A stretch of DNA of 64,000 nucleotides from assembly GCA_025526935.1 (NCBI GenBank), contig JAHLKD010000083.1, positions 124,001 through 188,000 of the forward strand, written 5' to 3'. This DNA is from Cladochytrium replicatum. Its lineage: Eukaryota; Chytridiomycota; Chytridiomycetes; Cladochytriales; Cladochytriaceae. How positions within the stretch are numbered: the first letter of the stretch is position 1; every line of letters starts with the position of its first letter. The translations under genes were made by a program, and so were the position numbers. The notes beneath the pieces are model-generated. The model was not told the DNA's origin, made no database searches, and saw only the letters and a program-made list of their open reading frames with translations. Shown here in pieces: positions 52,114 to 61,812 of this stretch.

Positions 52114-55100
52114 TCAAGTTCCATCATTGAGAATGAGAGTCATAATAACACGAACGACAGGACTTGATTCTAAGACATCCAAGCTCGGATCTGCGATCTT
52201 GCTTTCGAGAACCTCGTCAAGAAGCCTTCGTAATCCGTTCATCAGAATTGCGATGCGGGGGAATGTTTGGAACTTGCAAAAATCGTCCATGAGAAGAAGC
52301 ATGTTCTCCATGTCCACCTTTCATTAAAAAGAATTAAGACCCACTTCGTTCTCGCAAATGTGAAACAAACAAACCTGGAATGAACCTCCAAAGAGCAAAA
52401 GTGGATAGGCCGAAACTGTTGTCAAGTCCCTCACAAACGTTTTGCTGGTAACCACGACTTGGTGGTACATCCCAAACTCGGCCACTTCACCTCCGACACC
52501 ACCGCCACCGGCGCTTGCACCACCACTTGCACCCTCACCGCCGTCTTTGGGGAACCGCGGAACCCCAAAGTTGACGCTACTTGGGTGAACAAAAACGCGT
52601 CCAACGGGTTTACGGGCGAACAACTTCACTTGACGAGCGTCGGTCGCTTCCTTTTCAACAGTCCCGTGAGCAGTCTGTTCAAATTTTGCGGCTGGGTGTG
52701 CGATTCGAACAACGTTTGGGTAGAGTCCGGCCACAAGCACGGCTTTGAGTACTTTGATCTGGGAAGACGAGAACTGAGCACGAACTTTGCCCGGCGAGCC
52801 TTCCGATTCAGATTTTGTGACAAATCCGATATCACTGCCAAGAACTATCAGTCCGAACTGCCCAAATTCACAAACGATCCATACGTACACCAGAATTTGC
52901 CGGTACTGATCTCGAAGGTCAGCTATGCTGGTCAATGTTACGCTCGACAAGAAGTTCTTTTCGCAGAACTCTCGTTCCTCGGCATATAGCGCAGCACGCG
53001 ATAACTTCCCATCACTACCCAGTTGATTCCATTCCTCAAAGGCACGGGCATCTGTCAGCAAGTCGCTGTATCCCGTCGAAAATGCCTTTCGAGCTGCGGC
53101 CGCTTCGTCGCGCTTGTCTAATGGTGAGACAAACGGTGATTTGTTACTGAGAATTGCAGCGATGGTAAGAATCGGATCGAGACAGTTGAAAATAGAGCCA
53201 TATCTGGAAAGAATTAGTTATCGAATACTGTAAGTTGAACAGAACTCACATAAGCATTTTTGCTATTCTGAGATCAGCTGGGATAGTTGCCATATGTCGC
53301 CCAAGTGCGGTCAACTCTCCCGTATCTCTATCCAACGCATTCAGCTCTCTCAAGGTTGACACAGCTCGCTCTATGTTTGCCAACGAAGGCGGATCGATCG
53401 CCTGTATATCTATGTCAGCAAGAATTGAATGGAGCTTCTATCCCATACCTCGCGGAGGAAACGGGTCACATCTGACACCCCCATTGCCTTTATCTGCAAA
53501 CACAGCTGCTCCAAAGGCATCCGCAGCATCTCTGGCTTTTCGTGTGCCGGCATCTTACTTGCTTCAATGCGTTTCGTGTACAGCCGATAACATACACCAG
53601 GTTTGACACGGCCCGCACGTCCCCTTCTCTGCTTGCACGACGCACGCGATGCCCACACCTCCGTCAGGTTTAGCATGTACCCATCGAACTGCATCTGCTT
53701 AACCCGTCCACTGTCGATCACGTACACCACATCGTCGATCGTGATCGAAGTTTCCGCGACGTTTGTAGACACTACGATCTTGCGCACACCTTTTGGCATC
53801 CTTCGGAACACACGAGATTGCTCCTTTGGAGTCAAGTTTGCGTGGAGCGGGAAAATCTCGAAACGCCCGTAGCGAGAAGTTAGATCGCGGGAGAGTTGGT
53901 CGACGCAGCGTTTGATCTCCATTACGCCCGGTAAGAAGATCAAAATTGCACCGAGGCGATCATCTTCGAGATCCGTCGCGACTTCACAGATGTGCTTTGC
54001 GGTCGCGGCGATCAAATCATAGTCTATTTGGCCGGCCGTTATCTCTGCTGCTCGAATACTATCCACCTGCGCGTCGTCCAGACCCATGTCGGAAGCGAGT
54101 TGCGAAACATAGCTCTTAGCGGATTCATCCTTCTCCTCTTCCTCCAAAGCCTTCTTTCGACCTCCTTTCATTCGGAAGGGCATAATATAACCAGTTTCTT
54201 TGATGATAGACTCCAAATATATGTCCTTCACTGGGTGTGTGAACCCGGGTATCTCAAGCACCGGAGCACCTCTAAAGTAAATCGAAAAAGTTTCGCTGTT
54301 GATCGTGGCCGACATGAGAATAACCTTAAGATCCTTGCGCTGCTCCAGTCTTCTTAGGATGATCAGGAGGAAGTCACTGTCCACTTTGTAAAGCCATTTA
54401 GTACTTAATTTTCATGAGATGGACGGTTATACCTCCTCGCTCGTGCACTTCATCAATGATGACACAAGAAACGTCGGACAACAACGTGTCGGTTTGAATC
54501 ATCCGGAGCAAGATACCCGTGGTACAGAACATCAGCCGGGTGTTCTTCGACCGCACGGTCTCTCCTCGAATGGCGTAACCGATCGACGCTCCAACCTTCT
54601 CACACCTTTCTGCGGCGACACGTTCCGCTAGAGCCATTGCCGAAATCCTCCTTGGCTGCGTGCAGATAATGTTCGCCTGTTCACCGCGACCGGTTTCAAT
54701 CAGGTGGTCAAGAATAAATTGCCCAGTCTGAGTCGACTTCCCGCTATTCAATCAAAGCCTTGTGTCAGATTCGATTCCAGTGAGGATCCCATATCCCTGT
54801 GATTACCATCCAGTTTCACCACAAACAATTAGAACTTGGTTTGATTCTAAGGCCTAGATACCGAAAATGAACACATACCCCAGTGTCGACAAAAGGATAC
54901 ATACTGAAATAATCTCCTCACGGAAATTGTAAGAGGGTAGTTTCTTGCGGCCTTCGAGCATGTATTGGTATTCCTTCGTTTGCTTCTTCCTATTGAACTC
55001 ATCCAACACTCTAATGGACTCTGGCGTGTTCGCTACCCCTTCGAACGACCGTAGCTGACGATCAGGAACATATTTGCCTCCTCCTTGACCCTTCTTCCCG

Positions 55101-60073: not shown

Positions 60074-61812
60074 TTATGCACGGGTGACCTGCCACACCAA
60101 GATCCTGCCGTCCGAGTAACCAGCGAATAACGTTTGTCCGTCCGCAGACCAGGCGAGCGAGAGGCACTGCGGAGGGCTGCTCTTCTTCTTGTTGGCGTCC
60201 TAGAAAAAACAACACCAAGATTTATCAGCACCTTCGCAGATCATTACAATGAAATCAAAATTACGGGGTAGTCGGGTTTGGGCTCGTCAACAACGGCCTT
60301 GCTCTCCAAGTCCCAGATCTTGATGCCGGAGCCGGTGGCGGCGCAGAGCCAGTATCGGTTGGGAGAGAATGTGAGCGCGTGGATGACGTCGTCCGCCTCG
60401 AGGGAGTCGAGGTGGCGACCTTCGTTGAGATCCCAGAGCATGGCGATGCCCTCCTTGCCGCCGGAGGCGCAGAGAGATCCGTCGGGGGAAACGGTGACGG
60501 TATTGATGTAGCCGGTGTGGCCGTAGTGGTTAGTCTTTAACTTGACCTTAGACAAGTCCCAGACCTGGAAATTTTCAAAGTTAGGGCGAGATACGGAGGG
60601 AAGTGAGAAACGAAGAGGGGATGTAACGGTGGTGGTATCAGAGATCTTGGTGGTTAGATTTGTCTCATTGGGTTGGATTTGACCAAACCTCCGAAGTAGC
60701 AAATATAACAGATTACATCACATACCACCTCCGCCGAATCAACACAAAACTCACCTTGACAAGCTTGTCCCAGCCAGCGGAGACAATAACGGGGTTGAGG
60801 GGGTTGGGAGAGAAGCGGACGCACGACACCCACTCGGAGTGACCCTCCTCAGTCATGGTGTACTTGCATTCACCCAAAGTGTTCCACAGCTTAATCTGTC
60901 TGTCGCGAGACCCGGACACAATCTGACGGTTGTCAGGGGAGAAGGAGACCGAGAGAACGTCGTTGGTGTGGCCGACGAAGCGGCGGGTGGTGAGACCGGT
61001 GTTCAAGTCCCAGAGACGGAGGGTCTTGTCTGTAAAATTCACCCCGAGTTAAGCACTGCTGGTTGTGAGACTTTCAGGGCACAAAACGTACCCCACGAGG
61101 CAGAAAGGGCGAACTGGCCGTCGGACGAGATGGCGATGTCCTGGACGAAGTGGTTGTGGCCAGTAAGAGCGCGGCGAGGGACACCGTAGGTGACCTCGTC
61201 GCGAGTCAAGTGCCAGACAATTATGGTCTTGTCTGTAGTCGTCGAAAGTCAATTGTCAGACCGAGTTCAATCAAATCAACCGAATGCAAAGTCTAACATT
61301 CCAAATTGAAGTGTCGGCTTAAATCTTCCCAGCTGTTGAACCGAGCTTCTTCATGCAAATCTATCATCGGGCATATCCATCTCATCCAGGCAATCATCCA
61401 TCCGGCCATCCATCCATCCATCCATCCGAGCATCCATCCATCAATCGAACCACCATCGCTCGAGCCGCCATCCCTCAGACTCTTTCCCAGCCGCTTGTGG
61501 CCCTCAGTACGCGTCCCACTTTCCAGATCACCAGTTGTGATGCCCACACCCCAAGATGCGAAACCCAATTTTGGACGAGACCACCTACCGCGCGAAGCAG
61601 ACAAGATCATGTCGGGAGCCTCATTGCTGGTAGCAATAGCAGTGACCCAGCCAGAGTGGCCTAAGAAAAGGAGAAACAGAAAATACTGAGTTAGCTAGGT
61701 GACCACATTCCATCCCATTGTGTTCGCTTGAGCATGCCCAGCAAACGGGTTGCCTCTGGCCCCTGCACAACCTACCGATGAGCGTTCCGCGCAAGACGAG
61801 CGTTTCCGACAT
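60074..61812 (-). CDS. RACK1: RACK1 (Asc1/Cpc2), ribosome-bound seven-blade WD40 protein
   Basis: Six exons, 61812-61776, 61660-61589, 61232-61092, 61029-60755, 60564-60265 and 60199-60074, join in phase to 316 residues, the normal RACK1 length. Seven WD repeats are seen, including [47 protein letters not shown] and [10 protein letters not shown]. The N-terminus [19 protein letters not shown] is that of RACK1. The protein sits on the head of the 40S subunit and links translation to kinase signalling. Intron 2 (61233-61588, 356 bp) is long and carries an ATCC tract. Intron 4 (60565-60754) carries a U24 snoRNA. The start is 72 bp from the divergent LACTB2-like gene. Confidence 0.95.
60634..60726 (-). 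ncRNA. snR24: Box C/D snoRNA U24 (snR24 homologue) in RACK1 intron 4
   Basis: On the coding strand the intron holds, in order, box C TGATGTA (60721-60715), TGATGTAAT, the guide TTTGCTACTTC, then AATGAGACA, the guide CACCAAGATCTCTGAT and box D CTGA (60641-60638). A terminal stem GGTA/TACC closes the 93-nt element. From memory, the yeast U24 gene in the ASC1 intron has the same box C text and both guides. Those guides direct 2'-O-methylation of three neighbouring cytidines in the large-subunit rRNA. Position within the host intron leaves room for exonucleolytic release on both sides. Confidence 0.9.
61385..61445. repeat. ATCC microsatellite in RACK1 intron 2
   Basis: The plus strand reads repeated CATC units (CATCCATCCATC and variants) over about 60 bp inside intron 2 of RACK1. 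It partly explains why that intron is much longer than its neighbours. Confidence 0.85.

Follow-up and report, generated by a model that had tools for sequence, protein, structure and literature searches.

A U24 snoRNA in an intron of RACK1 in Cladochytrium replicatum, and the likely age of the pairing

Has an intron of the RACK1 gene carried the small nucleolar RNA U24 since early in the history of fungi? A locus of Cladochytrium replicatum raises this question, as a first-pass annotation of the DNA had placed a U24 snoRNA in a RACK1 intron there, had pointed to the same host in yeast (ASC1), and had suggested that the pairing would be ancestral in fungi. It had also named what would speak against it, namely guides that are not complementary to the 25S rRNA of the host, or a U24 gene elsewhere in the genome together with a silent copy here. 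We analysed a window of 64,000 nucleotides (the whole stretch of contig JAHLKD010000083.1 under study) together with the rest of the assembly, and coordinates refer to the window unless another sequence is named.

The host gene was spliced and translated from the following features:

60074..61812, minus strand: RACK1 gene, six exons (61812-61776, 61660-61589, 61232-61092, 61029-60755, 60564-60265, 60199-60074), 316 amino acids
60565..60754, minus strand: RACK1 intron 4, host of U24, 190 nt, GT...AG, phase 0, between ...DKLVK and VWDL...

Intron 4, one of the five introns of this copy, is bounded on the minus strand by the last base of exon 4 (60755) and the first base of exon 5 (60564), which places it to the base where the host intron had been claimed. 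The identity of the gene was equally borne out: a phmmer search with the spliced protein gave RACK1 proteins as its top-scoring PDB matches (best 547 bits), with three entries named G-beta-like or Gib2 at 534.7-537.9 bits, and a few other WD40 proteins (for example 2ymu, 7bid and 7bie) among the 55 PDB sequences listed.

The snoRNA and its parts, 5' to 3' on the minus strand except for the terminal stem, which is given last, were assigned as follows:

60634..60726, minus strand: U24 (SNORD24) box C/D snoRNA as delimited by Rfam, 93 nt, 28 nt from the 5' splice site and 69 nt from the 3' splice site
60715..60721, minus strand: box C, GTGATGT (Rfam consensus AUGAUGU)
60695..60706, minus strand: D' guide, ATATTTGCTACT, 12 Watson-Crick pairs with AGTAGCAAATAT of the LSU rRNA-derived copy
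60690..60693, minus strand: putative D' box, CGGA (a degenerate CUGA), assigned from the sequence and the guide pairing
60661..60667, minus strand: putative C' box, TGAGACA, after a 15-base insert relative to the Rfam model
60642..60654, minus strand: D guide, ACCACCAAGATCT, 13 Watson-Crick pairs with AGATCTTGGTGGT
60638..60641, minus strand: box D, CTGA
60723..60729, minus strand: 5' arm of the terminal stem, GGTGGTA, pairing with TACCACC at 60631-60637 (4 bp in the Rfam stem, longer in the fold)

The order claimed for U24, with box C, both guides, box D and a closing stem, is thus as had been described, and a C'-like box is also in place between the guides. The covariance check suggested at the time agrees with this: Rfam RF00069 (SNORD24) matched 60634-60726 on the minus strand with 51.1 bits (gathering cut-off 41 bits) over model positions 1-76 of 76, with an E-value of 5.6e-6 for the whole window, and was the sole Rfam family to reach its gathering threshold in the 64 kb. 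This full-length match over a curated cut-off is the likeness to the known family; the chytrid sequence differs from the model by the 15-base insert between the guides, which is part of an internal hairpin, and by a 2-base insert near the 5' end. The two-guide pattern occurred once in the window and in 0/100 shuffles.

Elsewhere in the RACK1 gene, an Rfam search at a loose threshold found no further snoRNA and gave just two lncRNA-family matches far under the cut-off. Intron 2 (61233-61588), in which the Rfam search found no RNA family, has its first ~75 bases and last 20 bases well conserved between the two RACK1 copies of the genome (described below), with GGAT/GATG-type repeats between them.

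We searched the 50.5-Mb assembly with the SNORD24 family model and, with 59 of 13,515 first-look candidates scored, obtained five matches at E ≤ 10, two of which were over the cut-off and lay in intron 4 of a RACK1 gene; the window copy again scored 51.1 bits, and the one other than the window copy (C109:96106-96198, 50.7 bits) is in the same intron of a duplicate RACK1 gene, which is all that these scored candidates yielded of a U24 gene elsewhere. In the same search, 11 of 14 prokaryote controls gave matches at E ≤ 10 and 0/14 were over the cut-off. The third match (L003 on C166, 28.6 bits) was under the cut-off, and as its DNA reads by eye as a lipase-like GHSLGG stretch we took it as a chance match; the remaining two were lower still (L004, 23.4 bits; L005, 23.2 bits). 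A chance resemblance to U24 in the window is refuted for practical purposes by the low E-value over the window, the empty shuffles and the presence of another copy in the corresponding intron of the RACK1 paralogue.

A protein search of the genome with RACK1 gave 45 matches, of which 8 make up two full RACK1 genes (window and C109), both bearing U24, and the other 37 fall in less closely related stretches, at 29-44% identity. Contigs C61, C63, C80 and C38 hold many long open frames with RACK1-like stretches at 34-44% identity, as would be seen if a family of large WD40 proteins had expanded.

We also scanned sequences from outside this genome. The U24 pattern was found in six stretches of prokaryote contigs, five of which had no Rfam match and were read as bacterial sequence, while the sixth (L040, 6158-6224) scored as SNORD24 at 41.1 bits, against the cut-off of 41. 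None of the six, L040 included, had a RACK1 match at E 1e-3 beside it. The contig of L040 is filed under a Verrucomicrobiaceae metagenome bin, and its SNORD24 match suggests that it is a eukaryotic contig inside that bin. Viral contigs gave 0 matches to the U24 pattern and three stretches matching a peptide pattern, none of which was confirmed as a RACK1 relative, and plasmids gave no match to a 300-base RACK1 exon query.

We then asked what the guides would pair with. Searching the genome for the 24-base double target AGATCTTGGTGGTNGTAGCAAATA with up to 2 mismatches allowed, we found it at two places without mismatch, with N = A at both, and its reversed control nowhere. In one of these (L034) it falls inside a stretch that Rfam matches to LSU rRNA with 1601.5 bits; the other (L033) shares 165 nt with L034 at 97.6% identity and has no Rfam match at the gathering threshold. 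The LSU match of L034 is partial and in two pieces, covering model positions 24-2341 of 3401, and we therefore regard L033 and L034 as, probably, rDNA-derived fragments. The LSU rRNA-derived pieces span 4326-4490 of L033 and 3538-6110 of L034 and are on two contigs.

Against this LSU rRNA-derived copy, an rDNA-derived fragment in our reading, both guides are perfectly complementary, with 13 consecutive Watson-Crick pairs for the D guide and 12 for the D' guide in both snoRNA copies and at both target places, which is the pairing that the first-pass annotation had said should be sought. These are the two longest Watson-Crick runs, with one further run of 10 in L034. When G-U pairs were allowed, longer chance pairings of up to 16 appeared elsewhere in the two 10-kb loci, and therefore only the Watson-Crick runs are telling.

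In box C/D snoRNAs the base of the target that pairs with the fifth base upstream of box D or D' is the one methylated. Here the fifth base upstream of the box D CTGA pairs with a C (the equivalent of yeast C1437); for the D' guide, if CGGA is its box, the corresponding base pairs with an A 12 nt downstream of that C (the equivalent of yeast 25S 1449). By sequence, the targets of the chytrid guides would thus fit yeast sites 1437 and 1449. The yeast U24 sites are printed as C1437, C1449 and C1450 in the accessible parts of PMC2749941 and PMC4848094, and a comparative table gives Cm1435 and Am1447, apparently in another numbering.

The second RACK1 gene allowed a comparison between paralogues. 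The C109 and window copies have their five intron positions in common and encode an identical protein (317/317 codons, stop included), and their coding DNA agrees at 899/951 positions (dN 0, dS 0.28). For this comparison the boundaries of U24 were those of the Rfam match and not those of conservation, and splice-site bases and gapped positions were set aside in the introns. The two snoRNAs agree at 91/93 positions, with the two differences (positions 13 and 70) both outside the guides and assigned boxes, whereas the intron-4 flanks of U24 agree at 47/83 aligned positions (Fisher test versus the snoRNA, 3.6e-12) and the other four introns at 310/498 (8.9e-15). The outer pairs of the terminal stem are interrupted in the paralogue. 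At fourfold sites 40/167 differ, and at such a rate the probability of two or fewer differences in 93 is 4e-9. Divided by side, the 5' flank agrees at 18/22 positions (P 0.012 versus the snoRNA) and the 3' flank at 29/61 (6e-14); as the 5' flank is itself fairly conserved, most of the contrast between snoRNA and flanks comes from the 3' flank. Judged from these alignments, U24 is under selection, because it has stayed nearly identical between copies whose intron flanks have diverged so far, with a dS of 0.28.

The surroundings of the two genes are also related: over 19095-61676 the window is largely collinear, reversed, with about 155982-95167 of C109 (20/23 blastn rows in order at 68-88% identity, C109:36001-156000 having been compared), which we read as a large duplicated block, arising by whole-genome duplication, hybridisation or very divergent haplotypes. 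Within it, the frames at 53413-54751 match C109 at about 66.6-68.3 kb at just 29-40% identity and out of order, and are possibly a repeated element.

Two readings would take the intronic segment as something other than a working guide. The first holds that it is a relic of U24, no longer expressed, with another gene having taken over its function. We consider this very improbable, as it would have to account for two snoRNA copies that are nearly identical while their intron flanks agree at barely more than half of their positions and for two perfectly complementary guides, and no third U24 over the cut-off was found among the scored candidates of the genome to which the function could have passed. 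In the second, the segment would have been kept for splicing or for an RNA structure of the RACK1 intron rather than for guiding methylation. This reading could draw on the shortness of the intron, on a near-constant distance to the 3' splice site and on the conservation of the 5' flank; conservation drops sharply in the 3' flank, however, and the segment matches U24 in boxes C and D as well as in both guides, so that we give this reading just as slight a chance. We are highly confident, on the strength of the model match, the guide pairing and the conservation, that the segment at 60634-60726 on the minus strand is U24 (SNORD24, snR24 of yeast) and works as a methylation guide.

As such a guide it would be made in the following way. 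U24 would be transcribed as part of the RACK1 pre-mRNA, intron 4 would be spliced out and debranched, exonucleases would trim the debranched intron down to the C/D core, and the resulting RNP would direct 2'-O-methylation of 25S rRNA, the D guide at the equivalent of yeast C1437 and the D' guide at that of 1449, two sites that lie 12 nt from each other. From the end of U24 to the 3' splice site there are 69 nt in the window copy and 68 nt in the C109 copy, a spacing that is near constant despite the changed sequence in between, and a branch-point-like CTAAC lies 15 nt (window) and 19 nt (C109) before the 3' splice site. Such spacing is typical of splicing-dependent C/D snoRNAs. For fungi, a route of this kind is supported by Fusarium, in which U24 drops and intronic-snoRNA lariats increase when the debranching enzyme is lost, according to the accessible part of PMC9606315.

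How old, then, is the pairing? We searched the genome for two families that bear on its place among fungi. The chitin synthase N-terminal family PF08407, which we take to be a fungal family, gave 7 matches over the cut-off and none in the 14 prokaryote controls, and the intraflagellar transport protein IFT57 gave five matches along C97 and a sixth, weaker one on C29 (3/14 controls had matches, none over the cut-off). Together these matches indicate a flagellated (zoosporic), and hence early-diverging, fungus.

We then compared the intron position with that of yeast ASC1, using a yeast Asc1 protein sequence that agrees letter for letter with PDB 3frx and presumed yeast exon coordinates (exon lengths sum to the expected 960 nt). 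If these coordinates hold, the U24-bearing intron follows residue 175 in the chytrid and residue 179 in yeast, in the same alignment column (180) and in the same phase (0). Because of this apparently shared residue and phase, common descent of one U24-bearing intron of fungal RACK1 is the best reading of a comparison between this genome and yeast, and we hold it to be likely.

A less probable course of events, which we regard as unlikely and yet the best of the alternatives, is that U24 entered RACK1 independently in the yeast line and in the chytrid, with its function unchanged. Hosts of U24 do vary, being RPL5 in sponges, RPL7A in human, PF13_0165 in Plasmodium and, for Neurospora crassa, listed as 'IR' (all as given in the accessible parts of the sources), and RACK1-type genes host other snoRNAs, such as PFS2 of P. 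falciparum, whose host intron belongs to a gene called 'guanine nucleotide binding protein', for which the authors cite an Asc1p/RACK1 paper. Against an independent arrival, the intron has the position and phase of the yeast intron (by the presumed yeast coordinates) and is one of five in the chytrid gene, and yeast SNR24 primers in the accessible part of PMC4848094 contain the D' stretch TTGCTACTTC and the D stretch CACCAAGATCTCTGA without any change.

The suggestion that the RACK1-U24 pairing is ancestral in fungi is therefore supported without being proven: it gains from the flagellated-fungus genome and from the intron position matching yeast in the presumed coordinates, and it loses from the N. 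crassa 'IR' entry and from the other hosts elsewhere. We also counted against it a study of the introns that eight intron-poor fungi have retained: it draws attention to the snoRNA-bearing introns of RPL7 and NOG2, and in its accessible text (PMC8476143) U24, ASC1 and RACK1 are absent.

On the reading by common descent, a single U24-bearing intron would probably have kept its position in RACK1 at least since flagellated fungi and yeast last had an ancestor in common, tying the output of a 40S protein to a 60S methylation guide, and the unit would have been kept twice after a large duplication, with the protein unchanged and the guide nearly so. SnoRNAs are known to move between host genes. If the reading is right, an intron, a snoRNA and a host gene that remained together from zoosporic fungi to yeast would provide a useful counter-example to that mobility, and would help to explain the retention of the ASC1 intron in intron-poor yeast. 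It would also call for caution with deletions of fungal RACK1, which can remove a 60S biogenesis factor along with the gene, as in yeast (accessible part of PMC2749941).

U24 and its intronic hosting by RACK1 are of a well-known kind, and the value of the present case lies in the apparent match to the yeast intron position and in the paralogue test. In the literature that we searched, which does not include 'The fungal snoRNAome', we found no published statement of the U24 host across fungi. That survey reportedly covers many fungal genomes and may already contain the relation between RACK1 and U24, for which reason we claim no priority.

Among known systems, human SNORD24 (RPL7A intron 2) and sponge SNORD24 (RPL5 intron 3) are likewise intronic box C/D snoRNAs, in ribosomal-protein genes, and differ from the chytrid in the host gene; the human host is thus a ribosomal-protein gene, as the first-pass annotation had stated, and one guide site of sponge SNORD24 is not conserved in 3/4 sponges (as far as the accessible parts of these sources go). 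Pleurotus SNORD24 is intronic in gene g3964, in the accessible text on that species. N. crassa CD50/CD51 and S. pombe U24/U24b have equivalent rRNA targets, but there each of the two guide functions has a snoRNA of its own; for N. crassa the listing gives 'IR', apparently meaning intergenic, for CD50 (U24) and intron for CD51 (U24b). The closest system is S. cerevisiae snR24, which is stated to sit in the ASC1 intron in the accessible parts of PMC2749941 and PMC4848094, in agreement with the yeast host named at the outset. The chytrid differs from it in the D' box (CGGA, against CAGA in the yeast snR24 primer), in the five introns of its RACK1 gene and in having two RACK1-U24 loci, and resembles it in the RACK1 host gene family, in the two target regions and in the D' and D stretches identical to the yeast primers, which suggests a RACK1-U24 partnership that is very old and otherwise ordinary.
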